A stretch of 64,000 bases of DNA from Pelomonas sp. Root405. Its GTDB lineage: Bacteria; Pseudomonadota; Gammaproteobacteria; Burkholderiales; Burkholderiaceae_C. Location of the stretch: positions 33,154-97,153 of the forward strand of contig NZ_LMDU01000017.1 of the NCBI RefSeq assembly GCF_001425165.1, in the 5' to 3' direction. Positions 43,516-53,496 of the stretch are shown here, in pieces; positions within the stretch are counted from its first letter, which is position 1; the number at the start of each line of letters is the position of its first letter. Both the position numbers and the translations under genes were made by a program. The notes under the pieces were generated by a model. The model was not told the DNA's origin. It saw only the letters and a list, made by a program, of their open reading frames with translations, and ran no database searches.

Positions 43516-43698
43516 GATGGGTCTCCTTCGAGGAAGCGGGGACAAATCGCTCCCGTTGCTTTGCGCCGCGGGCGTGACATCGTGCAAGGCGGACATGAAC
43601 CCGCGTGCAGGACGACACGCAATGGTCAGGTAAGACGCCAGCGGGTGGCACGGGCGCCGTAAGGTTCGCAAGCACTGCCGCTGCGGCATCATCCGGTG

Positions 43699-44340
43699 AT
43701 GAACACGACGAGCCGTCCGAGTCTGACCGCGCGACTGAAGGAAGAGACACGCGACCTTCACGCCCTGGCCGAGCGCAGCGGTGTGATGCCCGATCTGCTG
43801 CGCGGCAGAGCCAGCCTCTCGGTCTACTGTGCATTGCTGCGTCATCTCCATGCGATCTATGCGGTGCTGGAAGCTGCGCTGGACCAGCATGCGTGGGATC
43901 CCAGGCTTTGGCGACCTGAACTGCGGCGCCTTCGGGCGCTGGAACAGGACCTGGAGGCGCTGCAGGCCGGCGAATGGCGCGATGCTGCCCTGACTCCCGC
44001 CTGTCGCGTCTACGTGCTGCGCCTGACCACACTGGCCAAGGCGGACCCGACAGCCCTGGCAGCACACGCCTACCTGCGCTACTTGGGCGACCTGCACGGC
44101 GGGCAGATGCTGGCCCGGCTGGTGCGGCAACAGTTCGGGTTGACGGACGCTGCAGGAACGGCCTTCTATGATTTCGGCCCGGCCGAGCAGGTTCAGGCGC
44201 TCAGGCAGGACTTTCGCGCCGGTCTGGACGCGTTGGTCCTAACGCCGCCGCAGGTTGACGCCTTTGTGGCAGAAGCCTGCGAGGGCTTTCGCCTGCATCA
44301 GCGCATGTTCGAAGAGCTGCAGGCCGACGTACCGGCTTAA
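43699..44340 (+). CDS. bphO: biliverdin-producing heme oxygenase
   Basis: 213-aa heme oxygenase that opens heme to biliverdin, the chromophore of the bacteriophytochrome next door. The proximal heme His lies in KEETRDLHALAERSG. The distal helix reads YLRYLGDLHGGQMLARL, close to the family GDLSGGQ signature. A GTG directly precedes the ATG at 43699. The gene faces bphP, and the two stop codons share the sequence TTAA (overlap 44337-44340), which is unlike the usual bphO-bphP operon. Confidence 0.9.
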   Translation: MNTTSRPSLTARLKEETRDLHALAERSGVMPDLLRGRASLSVYCALLRHLHAIYAVLEAALDQHAWDPRLWRPELRRLRALEQDLEALQAGEWRDAALTPACRVYVLRLTTLAKADPTALAAHAYLRYLGDLHGGQMLARLVRQQFGLTDAAGTAFYDFGPAEQVQALRQDFRAGLDALVLTPPQVDAFVAEACEGFRLHQRMFEELQADVPA

Positions 44341-46472
44341 ACCGAAAAGCTGCGGATCTGCGCGTACAGCCCAGCCGCACGGCGGGTGGAAGTTTCCAGC
44401 TCCTGCAGCAACGGGGCCACCGGCGGGCCGCCGCGTGCATCGGCAATGTCCATGGCCGCCAGGCTGGCGTTGGTCAGGATGGCTGAAATGACTTCATCGG
44501 CCTCAAGGGGGCTCGCCTGTGCGGCCAGGCGCAGGGCGCTTTCCAGATTCAGCCGCGCCGTGTCGGCACGGCGTGCCTCACGCAAGTCGAGGAGGGTGAG
44601 CACATAGCCCAGCAGCTTGCCGTCCCGGCCATGCACCGGCTCGGCATGCACCGCCATCGGCAAGGCACCGCCGTCATGGGTCAGGAAGTCCAGTTCCCGC
44701 CGCCATCCGCTTTGCACGCCGCGCATGTGCTCGAGCGCTTGCTGCACGGCGGGTGCCGCGGCGAACAGCGCTGCGATGGCGCTGCCCTTGTCCACGCCCT
44801 GCCCGCGCAAGGCCACCAGGGCATCGTTGGCAAACACCGCCTCCCCCTTCGCATCGGCCACCAGCACCGGTTCCCGCGAGCCCGCCACGGCGCCGCGGAT
44901 CTGCACGAGCTGGTGCTCGGCAATCAGCAGCCGCACCGCGTGCACCTGCACGATGATGTCCACCAGGGCCACGCCGATGCCGCGCGCCAACGCAACCTCA
45001 GTGGTGGACCACGGCACGGCCGTGCCACGCACGATCTCAGACCAGGCCGCGAAAGAGCGCCGGGGCGACAGCTCCAGCGGGTTGTTGGCCACCATGGGCT
45101 TGGACGGGTCGCCAGCCCAGGTGACGCTCTGCAGCTGCTCCTTGCGGAACCAGATCAACCAGTCCGGGCTGTTGGTGGACAGACGCACCGCGAGCACGCC
45201 GCTGGCCGTCGGCGTAAGACTGGCCAGCCCAGGGTTAGCCTGGCCGACCGAAGCGCAGGCAAAGGGAGCATCGCCAGTCTGTGGCTGGGCCTGCACCCAG
45301 TCCAGCAGCGCTCGCAGTTCAGGCGTCGACGGCGCCTCGCCGGTTGTCAGCACTTCGCCTTCGCAGAACAGCGCGGCGCCAGTGGCCTCCAACGGCTGCA
45401 GCAGCGTTCGCGGGTTGCGGAACAGCGCGTAGCGCCAGTCGCCTTCCGTCGACGTGGCTTCGACGAGGCGCTGTTCCAGGCGGCGCACCATCAGAGCGAC
45501 CTGGGCATGGGCGTAGTTTTCGATGGCCGAGATGCGTGTGGAAGCCACCTCAGCCAGCAGATCGGCGGCCGCTCGCACCGTGCAGCGCAGATAGCGCGGC
45601 GAATAGTGGTGGGCCGCGATCAGCCCCCACAGCTGGCCCTCACGCACGAGCGAGGCTGTCAGCGTGGCCGTCACGCCCATGTTGCGCAGGTATTGCAGGT
45701 GCAGCGGCGACATGCTTCGCAGCTGGCAAAGCGACATGTCCAGCGGCTCACCCGTGCCTGGCAGTAAGGGCGACTGCACCGCATCGACATCAACCAGCAT
45801 GCGCACCCGGTTGAGCAGGTAAAGGGCGCGGGCGCGTTGCGGGATGTCGCTGGCCGGATAGTGATGTCCCAGCAGTGATTCCAGCCGCGGGTGGCGCGCC
45901 TCGGCAATGACCTTGCCATGGCCGTCGGGGTCGAACTTGTAGACCACGACCCGGTCATACCCGGTCAGGTGGCGCAGCACCTCCACGACCGCGTCCGCCA
46001 ACACACCGACCGAGGGCGCGGCGCCAAAACGCTGCAGGGCAGCGGTCAGCGTCTCGGTCATGACATGGGGCGCGAGGTCTTGCAGTTCAACGCCGTCGGG
46101 CAGGCTGGTTGAAGGCTCCAACTCCAACACCAGCTCGCCCGTCGCGATCCGGTGCAGGGCACCGTCGAAGCGGCGCAGCGACGGCCCGATCCGGCATTGC
46201 AGCGCAACGGCATCGCGCAGGTCGGCATTGCCTTGCAGATGCGCCACACGGTCGGCAATATCGCCTCCCAACACGGCGAGTGGCCGCTGAAGCAGCGCGT
46301 CGGGTTCCACGCCAAGCAGCCGCGCCACATTGCCGCTGACTTGCAGCACGCGCAGATCCGCCTGGGCAAGCACGAGCAGCGCGCCATGCGGCTGAACAGA
46401 GCCGGCCAGATGGATGAGCTCGCGTTCGCAGTTGGTGAGGTCGGCCTGACCGAAGGCGGGTGCCGCTTGCAT
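44337..46472 (-). CDS. bphP: bacteriophytochrome without kinase domain (PAS-GAF-PHY-PAS)
   Basis: 711-aa red/far-red photoreceptor. Cys15 (DLTNCEREL) is the expected biliverdin attachment site. PAS is about residues 25-115. GAF is about 140-310, with HYPASDIP (205-211), His258 and His288/289. PHY is about 320-500, with the tongue motif SPRRSF (469-474). A second PAS follows (about 530-630) and a short helical C-terminus. No histidine-kinase H-box or ATPase is present. This matches the kinase-less BphP1 type of Rhodopseudomonas and Bradyrhizobium, which acts by binding PpsR. It lies 35 bp downstream of ppsR, so the pair is probably one operon. Confidence 0.93.
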   Translation of the reverse strand: MQAAPAFGQADLTNCERELIHLAGSVQPHGALLVLAQADLRVLQVSGNVARLLGVEPDALLQRPLAVLGGDIADRVAHLQGNADLRDAVALQCRIGPSLRRFDGALHRIATGELVLELEPSTSLPDGVELQDLAPHVMTETLTAALQRFGAAPSVGVLADAVVEVLRHLTGYDRVVVYKFDPDGHGKVIAEARHPRLESLLGHHYPASDIPQRARALYLLNRVRMLVDVDAVQSPLLPGTGEPLDMSLCQLRSMSPLHLQYLRNMGVTATLTASLVREGQLWGLIAAHHYSPRYLRCTVRAAADLLAEVASTRISAIENYAHAQVALMVRRLEQRLVEATSTEGDWRYALFRNPRTLLQPLEATGAALFCEGEVLTTGEAPSTPELRALLDWVQAQPQTGDAPFACASVGQANPGLASLTPTASGVLAVRLSTNSPDWLIWFRKEQLQSVTWAGDPSKPMVANNPLELSPRRSFAAWSEIVRGTAVPWSTTEVALARGIGVALVDIIVQVHAVRLLIAEHQLVQIRGAVAGSREPVLVADAKGEAVFANDALVALRGQGVDKGSAIAALFAAAPAVQQALEHMRGVQSGWRRELDFLTHDGGALPMAVHAEPVHGRDGKLLGYVLTLLDLREARRADTARLNLESALRLAAQASPLEADEVISAILTNASLAAMDIADARGGPPVAPLLQELETSTRRAAGLYAQIRSFSV

Positions 46473-46507
46473 CGCTGCCCTGTCGCTGTGGGTTTTCTGT
46501 CAGTGAT

Positions 46508-47956
46508 TCAGTTGAACAGGGGCGGCTTGCCAACGACGTCCGTCGGATAGCCCATGCCGGACAGGCCGTGCCGCTGGATGCGCAGCTCCAAGGCCTCGGG
46601 TGACATGCCCAGAGCGTCGGCGGCAGTGGCGCGCTGTCCACCGGTGCGCAGCAACGCACTTTCGATCAGCTGGCGCTCCGCCCGATGGGCCACCTCCACC
46701 AGCAGGTCGGCCAGCGGCACGCGCCCGACCTGATCGAGCAGGCCGGCCAGCACGTCATCGCCTGCCAGATGCGCGGGCAGCCGGTGGCCCGGCCGCAAGA
46801 TGAAGCCCAGGCAGGCCTGTTCGCTTTCTGCCATCAGCGCCGCGGACACCCGCACGACTTGCGGGTTGCCGTCCAGCGACCCGACCGCCAGCGCGGCGTT
46901 GGACACCATGCCGGCCACGCGCACCCGTGCCACCAGCTTGGCCCAGCTGCCGTCGGCGTCAAGCAACAGAGCCGGCAATGCCTGGCCCCGCAACCGAACT
47001 TCATCGCTGCAGCGGCTCAGACGCAGGAAGGCCGGGTTGGCCATCAGGATGTTGCCCACCGAATCGGTGATGACCACCGCATCGGGCGTCGTCTCGACAA
47101 ACTCGGCCATGCGCGAAAGCGCCAGGCTGTCTGCCGAGTCGACCACCGTTCCCGCCACCGCTTCATCGCGGCGGGCGCGCAGCAGCAGTTGCTGCTGGTC
47201 ATCGACGAGGAACGGCGTTGCCGAGATATCAAGCGCCCCGGCCGTGGCGAGCGCGCGCACCCGTATCTCTCCGGCACGACCGGTGCTGCGCGCATTCGCC
47301 AGCAGCTCGGCTACGGCGACTCGCGCCGACGGGGGCAGGCTGTCGACCAGCGGCCTGCCTTGGATCAAGCTGAGCTCGTGGCCGAGCAGCACGGCACTGG
47401 CGGCGTTGGCCTCCAGCACCACCAGGGTATTGGCGTCGAGCGCCAGCACGGCGTCGTTGGCGACCTGGAACAACAGCTGGTAGCGCGACTCGGCCTGGCG
47501 ACGGTTCCAGTAATGGCGCTCCATGTCTTGCTGCGCCTCGACGAAACGCTGCTGAATGGCGGCCACGACCCGCAGGTCGCGGCCTACGGCCAGCACCGGT
47601 CCGTCGACGCCCAGGCGGATGGCCGACCAGGTGACGGGCAGTTCCTCGCCACCCGCGTTCGGGTGCGCCGGATGGCTGACCTCGCGGCGCCGCGACACAA
47701 TCCCTTTCTGGCTCACCTCGTCGAGCAGGGACTGGATCTTGGAGCGGGTGCTGGTGCTGACGGTGTCGACCCAGCGCTGGCCGACCCACTCGCCGCAGCG
47801 ATGCGCCTGCACGGCCGCGCCTTCGGCGACGGACGAGATGACGCCGTCCTTGTCAATGACCAGGGCGATGTCGCTGGCCACCCGCGCAATCGTCGTCGCC
47901 AGCTCGTTGGCCAGCGGCGACAGGGCACTGAGGTCGGGTTCAAGAGGCGTGGGCAC
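46508..47956 (-). CDS. ppsR: photosynthesis gene repressor PpsR/CrtJ
   Basis: 482-aa transcription factor that represses bch, crt and related genes by binding TGT-N12-ACA. It has an N-terminal PAS (about 25-125, ARVASDIALVIDKDGVI), a Q-linker helix (about 130-160), PAS1 (about 165-270), PAS2 (about 287-395) and a Fis-type helix-turn-helix (GGQRATAADALGMSPEALEL, about 439-458). The start is a GTG at 47956. Cys residues occur at 54, 316 and 382 only, none in the HTH, so the redox Cys known from the Rhodobacter DNA-binding region is absent. It lies between puf and bphP on the same strand. Confidence 0.93.
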   Translation of the reverse strand: MPTPLEPDLSALSPLANELATTIARVASDIALVIDKDGVISSVAEGAAVQAHRCGEWVGQRWVDTVSTSTRSKIQSLLDEVSQKGIVSRRREVSHPAHPNAGGEELPVTWSAIRLGVDGPVLAVGRDLRVVAAIQQRFVEAQQDMERHYWNRRQAESRYQLLFQVANDAVLALDANTLVVLEANAASAVLLGHELSLIQGRPLVDSLPPSARVAVAELLANARSTGRAGEIRVRALATAGALDISATPFLVDDQQQLLLRARRDEAVAGTVVDSADSLALSRMAEFVETTPDAVVITDSVGNILMANPAFLRLSRCSDEVRLRGQALPALLLDADGSWAKLVARVRVAGMVSNAALAVGSLDGNPQVVRVSAALMAESEQACLGFILRPGHRLPAHLAGDDVLAGLLDQVGRVPLADLLVEVAHRAERQLIESALLRTGGQRATAADALGMSPEALELRIQRHGLSGMGYPTDVVGKPPLFN

Positions 47957-48087: not shown

Positions 48088-49188
48088 TCATCCCGGGGCG
48101 GCTGGCTTGGTCACGGCGGCTGGCAGCGTCTCCAGCGCCTTGAGGTCATCGGGGGTCACGGTGGCGACGCCCGATGCGGCGGTGGCGGCCGGCATGGCCG
48201 TCATCAGCAGTTCGGGGTGATGCTTGGCCATCTCGGCGCCGTAAAGCGGCTTGTGCGCGCCCTGGTGGCAGGTGGCGCAGTTGACCTTGGCCACATCACC
48301 ACCCGGCCCCAGGCGGTTGGCCGGGAAGGTGCTGGTCAGCGGCACCATGTGCTCCAGATTCAGTTCGCGCGCCATGCGGATGCCATGCCAGGCGCTCAGC
48401 CGCGGCGGCGAGCTGTTCTCCCAGGATCCCAGCGAGCGGGTGTTGTGGCACTGAGTGCAGTTGACGCCCAGGGACTTGGACATGTGCATCATCAGCCCAT
48501 AGGTCCACTCGGCCTGCTTGGTCGACTGCCGGTTGCCGGCGGGCAGCGCCTCGGTGCCGGCCACGCGGATGTTCTCGTCGCCGAGCAGGAAGGGTGTGAA
48601 GGGGTCGTTTGGCAGCGAGCTCAGGCCCACGCTATCGGCCGGCGCGTTCTGGCCTGCCTTGTTGCCGGCAAAGTCGTTGGCGCCCTTGGGCATCAGCGGC
48701 TGGAACCAGACCTCCTTCGGCACGGGTTCGCCGCGGTGACACGTGAAGCAGGTGACGCCGGTCTTGGCGACATGCGATTTCCAGTCGCTGTTGATCTTTT
48801 GCGTCATCACGAGCATGCGTCGCGCGACGACCTTGGTGTAGAGCGAATCGTCGGCGAAGTTGGCGGCGTTGTGGCAGTGCACGCAGCCCTGCTTGGGCGC
48901 CACCCAGTTGGTCATCGCCACCATCGTGCGGCTGAACTCCGCCACGCTCTGGTTGCCCAGCACCTGCACGTTCTGGTAGACCTGGCTCGCCTTGGGCCCG
49001 TCCGGCGAAGCCGGCTCCAGCGGCGCTGGCGCCTCGTTGTTGGCGGCTTGCTCGGCCAACAGGCGCGGGTTGTAAACCTGCTCCATGCCGGTGCCGCGGT
49101 AGCCACGCTGCACGGTGTCGACCGGCGGCCGCTCGCAGCCGGCGAGAAGTACGCTCAGGCCCATCAGCGCCAAGTGGATTCGGTTCAT
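48088..49188 (-). CDS. pufC: reaction-centre tetraheme cytochrome c subunit
   Basis: 366-aa periplasmic electron donor to the special pair. The ATG at 49188 has GGGAG upstream and starts a lipoprotein signal (MGLSVLLAGC), so it is membrane-anchored. Four heme-binding motifs are present: CVHCH, CFTCH, CTQCH and CATCH. It is the last puf gene. The start overlaps the stop of a possible 64-codon ORF by 4 nt (ATGA). Confidence 0.95.
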   Translation of the reverse strand: MNRIHLALMGLSVLLAGCERPPVDTVQRGYRGTGMEQVYNPRLLAEQAANNEAPAPLEPASPDGPKASQVYQNVQVLGNQSVAEFSRTMVAMTNWVAPKQGCVHCHNAANFADDSLYTKVVARRMLVMTQKINSDWKSHVAKTGVTCFTCHRGEPVPKEVWFQPLMPKGANDFAGNKAGQNAPADSVGLSSLPNDPFTPFLLGDENIRVAGTEALPAGNRQSTKQAEWTYGLMMHMSKSLGVNCTQCHNTRSLGSWENSSPPRLSAWHGIRMARELNLEHMVPLTSTFPANRLGPGGDVAKVNCATCHQGAHKPLYGAEMAKHHPELLMTAMPAATAASGVATVTPDDLKALETLPAAVTKPAAPG

Positions 49189-49379
49189 GCTTGCACTCCC
49201 GTTTGGGAAGCAGCCCGACCTGCGCGCGCGGCGCCTGGCGGGGGTGATACGGGCGGCACAGCGGATGCCAGCGCCGGGACATGCGCCTGGATGGCCTGAC
49301 ACAGCGCCGGGCCGCACAGCCCCTGGCTGAGACCCTCCGACACGCCGATCGCCCAGCGCCTGAATTGAAGCCGGCTCAT
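49185..49379 (-). CDS. possible small coupled ORF between pufM and pufC, 64 aa
   Basis: The ATG overlaps the pufM stop (ATGA) and its TGA overlaps the pufC ATG (ATGA), so the ORF fills the 187-bp gap exactly. The product starts [16 protein letters not shown], has two Cys (LCGPALCQA) and a Pro/Ala/Gly-rich tail. No clear transmembrane helix and no similarity to PufX were seen, although pufX occupies the same genomic slot in Rhodobacter. The frame also runs open through pufM, as is common in GC-rich DNA, so it may be spurious. Confidence 0.35.
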
Positions 49380-50356
49380 GGCTGCACCCCCGGCACGACC
49401 AGGCTCGGGTCCGCCACCGGCGGGAACACCGCCGGATACATCGGCGCGATGCCGTGCTTGACGCCCCACAGGTACCAGTTGTCCACCACCGTGCCGGTCA
49501 GCAGGATGCCTATGCCGCCGGTCAGCGGGCACAGCACCGCGAACCACCAGGCCCACTTGTGGATCGACTCCATCGTCGCGTTGAATCCCATGGTCCAGCG
49601 CCAGAACAGCGCCGCGCGCTCGCTGGCGGTGCCACGGTCGGTGATCTGCTCGATCTCTCGCTCGCCACCGAAGCGGCTGACCGCCAGGATGGTGGCACCG
49701 TGCATCGCGAACAGCAGCGTCGACCCATACAGGAAGGCGATGCTGAGCATGTGGAAGGGGTTGTAGAACAGGTTGCCGTAACGCAGCGAGAAGGCCGCTG
49801 TCCAGTCCAGGTGCGGGAAGATGCCGAAGGGCACCGCCTCGCCCCAGCTGCCCATCAGGATGGGGCGGAAAAAGCCCAGCACCAGGTAGAGCCAGATGGC
49901 CGCGGCAAAGGCCCAGGCCACATGCGTGCCCATGCCGAGCTTGACCGCGCGGCGGTACATGCGCGCCCACCACAGCAGGATGGAAGCCGTCAGGAAGAAG
50001 CCGGCCAGAAGCCACCAGCCGCCCTGGTTGAGCGGCGGCAGGCTCAGGCCGTAGGCCGGCGGCGGCGGCTCCAGCGCCAGCCAGAACAGCTGGCGCGCGA
50101 ACTGCACCGGGTCCCAGCCGACCGAGGCCCACATGTTCAATCCGATGATCTCGATGGCGATGAAGCCGCAGATCAGCGAGCACACGCCCAGCCAGCCCAG
50201 GTAGATGGGGCCGAGCTGCGCATCGCCGATGCGGCCCAGCAGGTGCCAATGCAGCCCCTTGCCCTCGCGCTGGTACTCGTCACTGCCCAGCGGCACGCCC
50301 GGGTACGAGGGCGCCGCGACCTGGACGCTGGTGAAAAGGTTTTGGTATTCAGCCAT
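49376..50356 (-). CDS. pufM: photosynthetic reaction centre M subunit
   Basis: 326-aa five-helix membrane protein that, with PufL, binds bacteriochlorophylls, bacteriopheophytins and quinones. It starts [20 protein letters not shown] behind a GAGGAG ribosome-binding site. Conserved regions are [35 protein letters not shown] (special-pair His) and [18 protein letters not shown] (iron-ligand His). The C-terminal extension [13 protein letters not shown] suits a PufC-bearing centre. It starts 12 bp after pufL. Confidence 0.97.
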
Positions 50357-50368
50357 GGTGGGTTCTCC

Positions 50369-51193
50369 TCACTTCCAGACCGGCAGGTTGAGCCACCAGC
50401 TCCACCATTCGGGCCAGCCGCGGGTCCAGAACGGCCCGCTGATGACGATGCAGACGGCGCTCCAGAAGCCGGCGGACAAAGCCAGGAACAGGCCCAGCCG
50501 GTGGATGCCCAGCGTGCCGATCGAGTAGCCGATGGCATCGCGGAAGAATGTGTTCTCGTGCTCGGCCGTCTTCACCACTTGACCCTTGCCGGGGTTGGTG
50601 GCCGACAGGATCAGAGAGCCGTGCAGCGACAGCGCGAAGGTGGTGGCAAAGAAGAAGCTCACCGCCAGCATGTGCGCCGGGTTGTAGTGGAAGTGCAGGT
50701 ACTGGTAGCCCGTGTTGGAGACCCAGTCCAGATGACTCATGATCCCGTAGGGGAAGCCATGTCCCCAGGCGCCCATCAGCAGCGGCCGGATGATGACCAG
50801 CGTGACATAGGCCAGGATGGCCACCGCGAAGGCAAAAGGCACGTGATAGCCAATGCCCAGCTTGCGGCAGATCTCCACCTCGCGCAGCGCCCAGGACACG
50901 AAGGAGCCGGTGGCGCAGACGGTGATCAGCTGCCAGAGGCCGCCTTCCATCAGCGGCGCCATGCCGAGACCGTATTTCAGGTCGGGTGGCGCAATGTTGA
51001 TCTGCCAGAGGTTCCAGGTACCGCCCTGCGAGGCGCCCCAGACGATCAGCAGGATGCCGACGAGCGAGAAGAATGCCGTCGTCAGACCGAAGAAGCCCAC
51101 GTAGAAGGGTCCGACCCAGAAGTCGAGCAAGTCGCCTCCCAACAGGGTCCCGCCGCGGACGCGGTACTTTCTTTCGAAGTTCAGCATGGCCAT
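50369..51193 (-). CDS. pufL: photosynthetic reaction centre L subunit
   Basis: 274-aa subunit. The ATG at 51193 is preceded by GAGGTG; a GTG 9 nt further upstream is less likely. The N-terminus [20 protein letters not shown] is typical. Cofactor blocks are [46 protein letters not shown] and [16 protein letters not shown] (iron and special-pair His). It follows pufA after a 106-bp gap with a strong hairpin. Confidence 0.97.
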
Positions 51194-51252
51194 GCTTGCC
51201 ACCTCAGGTGGAGAAGGCTCCGCGGTACGTGGAGTCTCCGGTGCATTCAGGG

Positions 51253-51280
51253 CACGACGCGGGGCAGAGCCCGCGCCGTG
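51253..51280 (-). other. pufA-pufL intercistronic hairpin (mRNA stability element)
   Basis: CACGGCGCGGG pairs with CCCGCGTCGTG (one G-U) to give an 11-bp stem, 19 nt after the pufA stop. In other purple bacteria hairpins in this position protect the upstream LH1 mRNA from 3' decay and so raise antenna over reaction-centre output. The same role is inferred here. A weaker CTCC/GGAG repeat lies nearer pufL. Confidence 0.65.
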
Positions 51281-51299
51281 TTTTTCATCAGCGCGACGA

Positions 51300-51485
51300 C
51301 TACTTCGGCGCTGGCGCAGGCATCGATGAGTTCTGGCTCACCGCCTGCGTCCGGGGCCCGTCGAGCCAGTTGAACTTGTTGGTACTCAGCAGCACGAAGT
51401 GAATCACCAGTGCCAGTACGAACAGGAAGGCAAACAACGCGACCAGCGCTCGGCGCGGGTCGAACAGCAACCAAATCTTCCACAT
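51300..51485 (-). CDS. pufA: light-harvesting 1 alpha chain
   Basis: 61-aa LH1 alpha polypeptide. It starts [20 protein letters not shown] with an AGGAG ribosome-binding site; the open frame to 51590 is ignored. His29 in [11 protein letters not shown] is the bacteriochlorophyll ligand, followed by the typical NKFNWLDG. One transmembrane helix is expected, pairing with PufB in the ring around the reaction centre. The gene upstream is not pufB but the pufB-like ORF, whose TAG lies 11 bp before this start. Confidence 0.96.
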
Positions 51486-51496
51486 GCTTCTATCTC

Positions 51497-51721
51497 CTAG
51501 TTCAGGTGGGACAGGAAGGTATAGACACCCGACCGCACACCCTTGATCAGCGATTTCTCGCCCTCGGCGCCAGGCAACCACGTGCGCCACTTCAGGAACA
51601 ACACCTGGGCAGCGAGCGCGATGAAGAACACGAGCACAAAACTCACGAAGAACAGCGCCTCGAAAGTCTTGGAGTCCTGCACAGCAGGGTGGCTCACAGG
51701 AACGGTCGTGATCTCAGCCAT
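51497..51721 (-). CDS. LH1 beta-like polypeptide lacking the bacteriochlorophyll His
   Basis: 74-aa single-helix protein between pufB and pufA. Residues 1-49 align with PufB without any gap: 18 identities, including MAE, F20, F24, S27-F28, I34-A35, A38, V40-L41 and the C-terminal W45-R46, W48-L49. PufB His39, the axial bacteriochlorophyll ligand, is Gln39 here, and PufB His21 is Glu21. The chain then continues 25 residues beyond the usual end ([20 protein letters not shown] and a short tail). An AAAGG ribosome-binding site precedes the ATG. It is probably an LH1-associated accessory subunit derived from beta; function is inferred only. Confidence 0.85.
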
Positions 51722-51744
51722 GGCGACAACCTTTCAAACAAGGC

Positions 51745-51894
51745 TCAAAGCCAGGGACGCCACATCCACACCAGCACATGGGCCACCGCGGCAATCGCCG
51801 TGAAGCCGATGAAGCTGGTCATGAAGATGCCGTGGAATTCCCGGGCCTCGTTGTCCGTCAGCCCGGACAACGAGCCTGTTCTGTGTTCAGCCAT
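51745..51894 (-). CDS. pufB: light-harvesting 1 beta chain
   Basis: 49-aa LH1 beta polypeptide translated from 51894. It starts [20 protein letters not shown], has His21 and the bacteriochlorophyll-ligating His39 in AAVAHVLVW, and ends WMWRPWL, all canonical. A GAGGAG element lies upstream of the ATG. It is the first puf gene, 117 bp after bchZ. The gap carries a small CCGCGC/GCGCGG hairpin and no TGT-N12-ACA site that I could find, so puf may depend partly on read-through from bchC. Confidence 0.96.
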
Positions 51895-52011
51895 ATCGAT
51901 AGCTCCTCATCAATGACCTGGGGAAGATTCCTTCGGCCAACACCGCGCAGGTCCCGCGCGGCAGGGACTTCCGAGGCTGCGAGCCCACGGCAAGTCGTTC
52001 AGGGAAGGCGT

Positions 52012-53496
52012 TCAAGCCAGCGCCCCGATGGCCGCCGCGGCCAGCTGCCGCGTATGACCTTCAATGTCTTCAACGCCCACCGCCACGGCACCACGCGCAC
52101 GCGCCGCCACCTCGGCGCGGTCACGCAGCCGCTTGGCGGCCGAGATGCGCACCAGCACCGGCTGCGCCTCCAGCAGTTCGTCCAGCAATTCCTTGGCGCC
52201 GTCGCTCCAGTCCATCTCGGGCACGGCCCGCGCGGGCGTGGGCGCTGCGCGGTCGAGGTCGGTGCCCAACGGCAGGATGTGGAAGAGCGCGTCGAACAGC
52301 GCGTTGCAGAACTCCTGCACGAGGTATGTGGCGCCGGCATAGCCCATGAACGGCGTGCCGGTGGCGCGGCGGATCAGCGCGCCGGGGAAGGACGCGGGGA
52401 TGAAGGCCGGCTTCATGGGCCCGGCGCTGGACGCCTCGGCCAAGTACATCCGCTCGTTGAAGCTGCCGTACATCACCAGCGGCGGCTTCTCGTGGACGAG
52501 GGCACGGATGGCGGCGTTGTCGGTCTTCTCGCCGGGCTTGCGGGCGACGGCGAAGTTGCAGGGCAGGCCCAGCTCTTCCTCGAAGAAATGACGCAGGCCG
52601 CGCGAATAGGTTTCGCTGGCGACGACCGCAAAGCTGGCCGTGCCGAAGAAATCCTGCGTCACCGATCGCCACAGGTCCCAGATCGGCTTGATGGTGGTGT
52701 GCTTCTCGCGCTCGATGAAGGGCTCGGGGTCGAGGTGCAGCAATTCGCCGAGTTGCCGCAGGAAGGCCGTGGTGCTGTGCAGGCCGATGGGCGCCTGCAG
52801 ATAGGGCCGGTCCAGCGCCTCGCAGAGCATGCGACCGAACTCGCGGTACATGCAGACATTCGCGTCCGCGTCGGCCAACCGGGCCACGTCGGCCACGTGG
52901 CTACCGAGAGGGAAGGCCATGTTGACCTCGGCGCCAATGCCCTCGATGAGGCGACGGATCTCGTGCAGGTCACTGGCGCTGTTGAACTGGCCGTAGCAGG
53001 GGCCGATGATGTTGACCCGCGGCTTCTCGCCAGCCGGTCGCTCGGCAAAAGGCTTGCGCGCCGGCACCTTCTTGACGCCGTACTCCGTCCACAGCCAGAA
53101 CATCGCGCGGTTGGCGCATTGCCACTGGTCTTCGTCGATGGTGCGCGGCAGGAAGCGGGCGATGTTGGTGCCCTCGGGCGTCACGCCCCCGCCGATCATC
53201 TCGGCGATGGATCCAGTGACGACGACGCTGGGCAGGTCAGGGTCGAGCGCGGCGTGCGCGCGCTTCATGGCGCCCTCGGTGCCTTCGCGGCCCAACTGCT
53301 CCTCGGCCAGGCCCGTGACAACGATGGGCAGCTCATGTGGCGGCAATGCGTCGGTGTAGTGCAGCACCGAGGTCACCGGCAGGTTCTCGCAACCCACCGG
53401 GCCGTCGATGACGACCTGCAGGCCCTTGATGGCAGTGAACACGTAGACCGCGCCCCAATAGCCGCCGGCACGGTCGTGGTCGAGAACGAAGTTCAT
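52012..53496 (-). CDS. bchZ: chlorophyllide a reductase subunit Z
   Basis: 494-aa catalytic subunit of chlorophyllide a reductase (with BchY), which reduces the C7-C8 bond to give the bacteriochlorin ring. It starts [20 protein letters not shown] at 53496, where the bchY TGA and the bchZ ATG share one base (TGATG). Fe-S ligand regions [10 protein letters not shown] and [14 protein letters not shown] fit the nitrogenase-like family. The frame open to 53595 is overlap with bchY. Confidence 0.95.

Follow-up and report, generated by a model that had tools for sequence, protein, structure and literature searches.

An LH1-beta paralog without a conserved pigment ligand is encoded between pufB and pufA in many phototrophic Burkholderiales

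Introduction

Bacterial cores composed of a reaction centre and light-harvesting complex 1 (RC-LH1) vary in ring opening, in ring sealing and in attachment to the reaction centre, and accessory polypeptides such as PufX and protein-W affect how quinones pass. Here we describe gene X, an open reading frame (ORF) of 74 codons with an ATG start in the puf operon of Pelomonas sp. Root405, which lies between pufB and pufA at positions 51497..51721 on the minus strand of the 64,000-nucleotide stretch of contig NZ_LMDU01000017.1 that was analysed (the window, to which all coordinates refer). A preliminary description had reported a 74-codon gene at this place without giving its strand; the gene is present, and the plus-strand reading of the same positions is unrelated to it. 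We are nearly certain that X is a tail-bearing paralog derived from the LH1 beta chain, that it lacks a conserved pigment ligand and that it is under selection.

The closest described counterpart is ORF74 of Roseateles depolymerans (RD2015_RS05155), to which X corresponds by its position between pufB and pufA and by its length (PMC10037100). The portion of that paper covered here reports that a major 1-kb transcript carries pufA, pufB and ORF74 together (citing Suyama 2002), that the three genes showed the greatest changes upon carbon starvation and were among the most induced loci, and that they fell to 0.71, 1.09 and 2.34%, respectively, in a sigma-factor mutant (PMC10037100). Since ORF74 is co-transcribed with pufB and pufA and highly induced, X appears to be made together with the antenna, as expected of a structural part. 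The homolog in R. depolymerans DSM 11813 (L015) is 72% identical to X of the window. The gene had thus been noted before, although the preliminary description knew of no described protein of this type, but neither its relationship nor its function is stated in the covered portion of PMC10037100, which, within the partly covered open-access literature on the gene or on a pigment-free beta chain, was the only paper to mention it. The accessible part of a review of RC-LH1 structures names PufX, protein-W, protein-Y, subunit X of Roseiflexus, RC-S and RC-U, none of which is the gene described here (PMC10214105).

Results and discussion

X is homologous to the LH1 beta chain

The pufB gene of the window (51745..51894, minus strand) encodes a short LH1 beta chain of 49 residues that ends in WRPWL and carries the ligand His39 (NF040862, E 1e-26; PF00556, E 5.7e-13). 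Gapless alignment of X with this chain over residues 1-49 gives exactly 18 identities, as had been reported; segment-wise shuffles of X yielded 4.5 identities to PufB on average, and 0 of 20,000 attained 18. When X was compared with the sequences of the PDB by phmmer, LH1 beta chains of solved structures were matched, the best being 8z81_B (3.7e-9), followed by 7xxf_B (2e-6), and the homology to LH1 beta therefore has more behind it than the neighbouring pufB. Searches of Pfam and of NCBIfam with X of the window gave no match up to E 5, and at E<=1, PF00556 was reached by 8 and NF040862 by 14 of 40 members of the X family. In profile comparison, X scored 115 against the long form of PufB found in some relatives (99.6%, E 4e-24, 73 columns), compared with 5% for a PufA profile that served as alpha-chain control. 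The phmmer and profile results together support the proposed paralogy with LH1 beta. X was unmatched in a plasmid collection.

In summary, X resembles LH1 beta (PufB; PF00556, NF040862), especially the long-tailed chain of Rhodopila globiformis (7xxf_B), in homology that includes the tail, in the WR.W motif and in its place in the puf operon. It differs from PufB in that the Mg-ligating His is not conserved, His21 is lost, the membrane helix drifts and the tail is more conserved than the helix.

Ligand site, tail and selection

These differences were examined in 95 X sequences that are distinct as genes (92 distinct proteins). In the corresponding 95 PufB sequences, the His ligand and His21 are found in 95/95 and the Trp at the +4 position (W43) in 94/95, whereas X of the window has Gln, Glu and Leu at the three sites. 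Across the X family the ligand site holds Q in 73 sequences, T in 7, A in 4, K in 3, L in 3, S in 2 and C, G and H in one each, and the +4 site holds Leu in 43, Trp in 24 and other residues in the remainder. The replacement of His39 by Gln and the loss of the normal Mg ligand are thus borne out, the site being free in X and fixed in PufB. The further suggestion of Gln as a weak pigment ligand is not supported for the family, as eight other residues stand there in 22/95 X sequences. Judged from the alignments, X lacks a conserved pigment ligand, and Gln is rejected as a conserved Mg ligand for the family. The sole X with His at this site (L067, genome G110) could be a reversion or a pigment-binding X.

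Family alignments divide X into a variable N-terminus (residues 1-20), a membrane helix (about 21-44), the WR.W motif (45-48) and a conserved tail (49-74). The 25 C-terminal residues had been described as an addition to the beta chain, but they are not new: the tail is homologous to that of the long PufB of relatives without X, and a new C-terminal domain was thereby ruled out. In the 12 Burkholderiales operons of this kind, PufB has 76-78 residues. X tails align with the long PufB tails from such X-free operons (e.g. L150-L154), and the tails PGAEGYTSMLDGVKAAANTITPYMMS (L153) and PGSGGYTSMIDGVKAAVNSFMPYVFMA (L150) align with the 25-residue end of X of the window. In one locus, L155 (G463, near 1509-1712), X follows pufB on a contig that stops short of pufA, and the end of the X tail, ANSVIPLMFM, seems to stand midway between X tails and those of long PufB or PufQ-like proteins.

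The two kinds of chain are constrained in opposite ways. At a PufL identity of 0.75-0.85, the conserved fraction is 0.71 in the helix and 0.47 in the tail of long PufB (16 pairs), and 0.37 and 0.62, respectively, in X (3433 pairs; pairs are not independent). The constraint is reversed: long PufB conserves the membrane helix and X conserves the tail. The tail residues P50, G51, A52, E53, V62, V66, Y67 and S71 are each retained in at least 91/95 X sequences. The tail helix of X of the window is amphipathic (moment 0.44 vs 0.22 in shuffled sequences, p 0.03), as are 51/94 distinct X tails at p < 0.05.

Selection was estimated as the ratio of nonsynonymous to synonymous rates (dN/dS) in 55 Roseateles-like pairs from 11 loci; a wider set, where synonymous sites are near saturation, was left out. 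The median dN/dS was 0.163 for X, 0.150 for PufB and 0.129 for PufA, and within X it fell from 0.32 in the N-terminus to 0.20 in the helix and 0.05 in the tail. X is the fastest of the three in absolute terms, with a mean dN of 0.146 compared with 0.054 for PufB and 0.060 for PufA. The test that had been proposed for the gene thus points to purifying selection, with no sign of decay in close strains, and a chance ORF or a decaying gene is ruled out by conservation together with dN/dS.

Distribution among puf operons

Two samples of Burkholderiales were searched for X. In the family sample of 399 genomes, 61 matched the X profile, some of them through PufB alone. Anchoring on pufM found 64 genomes with this gene and 62 readable puf operons, the unreadable loci being G226 (contig end) and G388 (broken operon). 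Short PufB occurs with X in 54 of the 62, all in the order pufB-X-pufA, long PufB without X in 7, and short PufB without X in one (G133), where pufB directly adjoins pufA. In the order sample of 379 genomes, 54 matched the X profile at E 0.01 or better, 4 of which belong to the family already counted. This sample was not anchored on pufM, and its denominator is therefore the set of puf loci detectable by profile: outside the family there were 41, comprising 33 with X (32 with complete pufB-X-pufA and one ending at the contig edge before pufA), 5 with long PufB and no X, and 3 with short PufB and a PufQ-like gene. Nine weak matches were also obtained; one that was fetched (G511) had neither pufB nor pufA, and the other eight were left unread.

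Taken together, the 103 readable Burkholderiales puf loci comprise 87 with short PufB and X, 12 with long PufB and no X, and 4 with short PufB and no X; long PufB and X were found together in the same operon in none of the 103. Absence of X from all relatives, which would have spoken against the preliminary description, was not found, as it is present in 54/62 operons of the family and in 33 genomes of other families. Among the loci read from class (185 genomes) and phylum (209 genomes) samples, the arrangement pufB-X-pufA was not found outside Burkholderiales. Closer to home, 7/20 genomes of the genus sample match X (the match in L007 is only a 25-residue end at a contig edge), and a scan of named genomes gave 14 X loci, including Roseateles puraquae, R. 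toxinivorans, R. terrae, R. depolymerans, a Paucibacter, Sphaerotilus mobilis and Leptothrix discophora; one of these loci (L021) is cut off by its contig end 19 codons into X, just past pufB.

A PufL tree of 123 rows interleaves operons with long PufB and operons with short PufB plus X, and operon transfer may explain part of the pattern. One locus, L008, comes from a metagenome-assembled genome labelled Methylotenera and has a PufL identical to that of Roseateles puraquae; the label or the binning is probably wrong.

Expression signals and the surrounding operon

X had been credited with its own ribosome-binding site. Across the family this site is of ordinary strength, with a median duplex value of -7.6 for X compared with -8.5 for pufB and -7.3 for pufA (93-94 loci); the X site is weaker than that of pufB in 55/93 loci and weaker than that of pufA in 41/93. 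The window's own copy is weak, at -4.3, next to -8.6 for pufB and -7.3 for pufA. A consistently weak site that would imply one copy of X per ring was considered and is unsupported by the family comparison.

On the minus strand, the genes follow one another in the order bchZ-like gene (named by eye), pufB, X, pufA, pufL, pufM and pufC. pufA (51300..51485) encodes an LH1 alpha chain of 61 residues (NF040861, E 3.9e-22; PF00556, E 4.9e-17). The 97-nucleotide gap between pufA and pufL folds at -38.8 kcal/mol (z -3.0 vs 200 shuffles), and RNA folding places in it a strong stem-loop (51253..51280, minus strand), a candidate 3' border of an abundant pufB-X-pufA message; the stem-loop fits a stable message of this kind. 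No Rfam family was found at the gathering threshold in positions 50300-52400. Further downstream lie pufL (50369..51202, the query of the PufL tree) and pufM (49376..50356, the anchor gene in the scan of the 399 genomes), both ORFs named by eye, and pufC (48088..49317, start approximate), an ORF read by eye as the cytochrome subunit with four CxxCH motifs; all three are on the minus strand. In R. depolymerans an extra small ORF77 has a locus tag between those of pufM and pufC in Table 2 of PMC10037100, as far as that paper was covered, and in the window the pufM-pufC gap (49317-49376) has no space for it.

A search of the window's genome with the light-harvesting family matched only pufB and pufA at values up to E 1 and thus revealed no LH2. 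Bordering the photosynthesis cluster (43696-47956), a plus-strand heme-oxygenase-like gene convergent with a phytochrome-like gene, followed by a PpsR-like regulator, was recognised by eye, which suggests red-light control of the cluster.

A proposed split between two beta chains

The simplest reading of these data would be that a beta chain was duplicated, with the pigment site retained in one copy and the tail in the other. A long-tailed PufB would have been duplicated, giving X as a second LH1-beta polypeptide; PufB would have kept the helix that binds bacteriochlorophyll and lost the tail, and X would have given up the pigment ligand while retaining the tail. X would then enter the RC-LH1 core as a pigment-free beta-type subunit, with membership, copy number and topology that are all putative. 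Its helix would pack against an alpha subunit or beside a beta subunit, and its conserved amphipathic tail helix would run along the membrane surface and touch the reaction centre, the cytochrome subunit or neighbouring LH1 chains. Where X took the place of a pigmented beta chain, the bacteriochlorophyll ring would be interrupted and a quinone path might result.

We marginally favour this account as a whole, in which the products of an LH1-beta duplication shared out pigment binding (PufB) and a tail function (X), with X as a part of the RC-LH1 core. X is probably a pigment-free RC-LH1 subunit, and we lean somewhat more clearly towards a lasting subunit of the complex than towards the account in full. 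A role in a ring gap or in quinone passage would be unlikely. More broadly, and only tentatively, we can picture that a large group of phototrophic Burkholderiales makes its core antenna with two beta chains that divide an ancestral chain between them: PufB, with pigment and without a tail, and X, with a tail and without pigment, which would interrupt or lock the LH1 ring as a beta-derived counterpart to PufX. The PufQ-like proteins encoded upstream of pufB would belong to the same superfamily, and an antenna polypeptide would then have given rise to assembly factors as well as to ring subunits.

Several observations weigh against X as a beta-type core subunit descended from a long PufB. AlphaFold, run on 12 sequences, gave X helices at 12-48 and 55-73 in a weak model (mean predicted local distance difference test score 70, predicted template modelling score 0.38), and a Foldseek search with the X model found no match in the PDB. 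Among 94 distinct X sequences, 60 have more lysine plus arginine after the helix than before and 12 show the reverse, compared with 1/20 and 7, respectively, for long PufB; under the positive-inside rule, this excess means that the tail of X could be cytoplasmic, unlike that of a beta chain. Regarding descent, a tree of 107 chains over 74 columns places X on one side of a branch with support 94 (below the 95 mark). The same tree separates X plus the PufQ-like proteins from all PufB (support 87, not significant), and a group of X with long PufB is absent from the best tree, although not rejected by the approximately unbiased test (p-AU 0.27). Direct descent of X from PufB would thus be favoured by the profile scores and not by this tree, which is too short to separate a direct PufB origin from a route via a PufQ-like stage. 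In the PufL tree, with duplicate loci of one genome removed, well-supported branches offer three independent contrasts, and in most random pairings two agree with an association of X with short PufB and none oppose (sign test not significant). Finally, short PufB occurs without X in four Burkholderiales genomes, all of which carry a PufQ-like gene, and at two loci from outside the order (L121, L136) it is accompanied by neither; X is therefore not always needed.

PufQ-like genes and other explanations

In the four Burkholderiales that were read with short PufB and no X, namely G133 and the f23 genomes L156-L158 (three in number), a single-helix ORF separates bchZ from pufB. Similar PufQ-like ORFs occur in other classes, for instance in Thiodictyon (annotated as hypothetical) and Methylobacterium, and the set in this position (L119, L120, L135, L156-L158, L082, L167, L168) spans alpha-, beta- and gammaproteobacteria. 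In 109 loci with pufB followed by X (repeats included; 3 with <350 nucleotides upstream are uninformative), the sequence upstream of pufB showed no ORF with a helix. X (87) and the PufQ-like gene (4) were not seen together in Burkholderiales with short PufB. As they replace each other there, a PufQ-like function is the main rival: X would correspond in Burkholderiales to PufQ and would be a small factor with one helix that serves in assembly or pigment delivery, relocated from upstream to downstream of pufB, and not a lasting part of the complex.

The PufQ of Rhodobacter sphaeroides directs porphyrin flux through ferrochelatase, and its C-terminal part is conserved, according to the covered part of PMC5725709, and X shares with PufQ its size and its layout of one helix, a conserved C-terminus and a divergent N-terminus (PMC5725709). 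The profile of the nine PufQ-like proteins matches X at 98.7% (E 3.6e-16), or at 97.3% (E 2e-11, score 57) with 94 X sequences, and the grouping of X with these proteins in the short tree points the same way. PF05398 was not found in the window's genome. Against a PufQ counterpart, none of 40 X members matched PF05398 at E<=1, the X profile is far closer to long PufB (115) than to the PufQ-like proteins (57), and canonical PufQ is not matched convincingly (14% against two sequences). X also lies inside the pufB-pufA message, after pufB, and the PufQ-like genes lie ahead of it, between bchZ and pufB. Nor are the PufQ-like proteins proven PufQ: only one of the nine reaches PF05398, at E 0.061, below the cut-off, their profile matches canonical PufQ weakly (25%), and it matches long PufB at 97.3%. 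Moreover, the 12 Burkholderiales with long PufB have neither X nor a PufQ-like gene, even though long PufB and a PufQ-like gene coexist outside the order (L120, L135, L167). We therefore regard the PufQ counterpart as rather unlikely, though the strongest of the rivals. By profile the PufQ-like proteins resemble LH1 beta and X, so PufQ itself may have a wider distribution than its annotation shows and may have arisen from an antenna beta chain.

As a special case of X as a core subunit, one copy might block ring closure and preserve a quinone gap in the manner of PufX or protein-W. X is a beta homolog without a pigment ligand encoded in the puf operon, and the covered part of PMC10214105 describes open rings held by membrane polypeptides of such kind. 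With PufX of Rhodobacter it shares the puf operon, the membrane helix, a predicted lack of pigment and a possible ring role. PufX, however, is encoded after pufM where pufC is absent, and in Rhodobacteraceae it replaces PufC (PMC6052148, covered in part), whereas X sits between pufB and pufA in an operon that has pufC, and it belongs to the abundant pufBA segment and is not a late low-abundance gene. X of the window does not match the PufX family (PF11511), which one of 40 X members reaches at E 0.27. The ring-breaker reading appears doubtful.

Another special role, that of a stoichiometric third LH1 chain, many copies of which would sit between the betas and seal or stabilise the ring as gamma does, is improbable. 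The gamma polypeptide of Blastochloris has about 36 residues, and X resembles gamma and gamma-like chains as a predicted pigment-free accessory helix. Its gene is within the antenna message, and its ribosome-binding site is, across the family, close in strength to those of pufB and pufA. In Rhodopila globiformis, 11 gamma-like copies lie between the betas in opposite orientation, as stated in the covered part of PMC9640540, and the charge pattern of X allows such an inverted topology. X, on the other hand, is beta-derived and has 74 residues, compared with 22 in the Rhodopila gamma-like chain, whose genes lie far from pufLMC (PMC9640540), and the ribosome-binding site of X is weak in the window.

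Lastly, it is very improbable that X binds bacteriochlorophyll through Gln as a spectral variant of beta, for although Gln is able to ligate chlorophyll magnesium and is the commonest residue at the site, eight others stand in its place, and the +4 Trp is Leu in the window and variable in the family, even if retained in about a quarter of its members.

Concluding remarks

X is a conserved candidate in the antenna message of 87/103 readable Burkholderiales puf loci from two samples, for which neither Pfam nor NCBIfam has a model of its own. The length of PufB is not a neutral trait, since a tail that is absent from a short PufB may sit on another gene. If X is indeed in the complex, gene duplication would here have set pigment binding apart from scaffold function in a single antenna polypeptide. 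The conservation of X, with its tail but without the pigment ligand, suggests a novel accessory component of the bacterial light-harvesting core.
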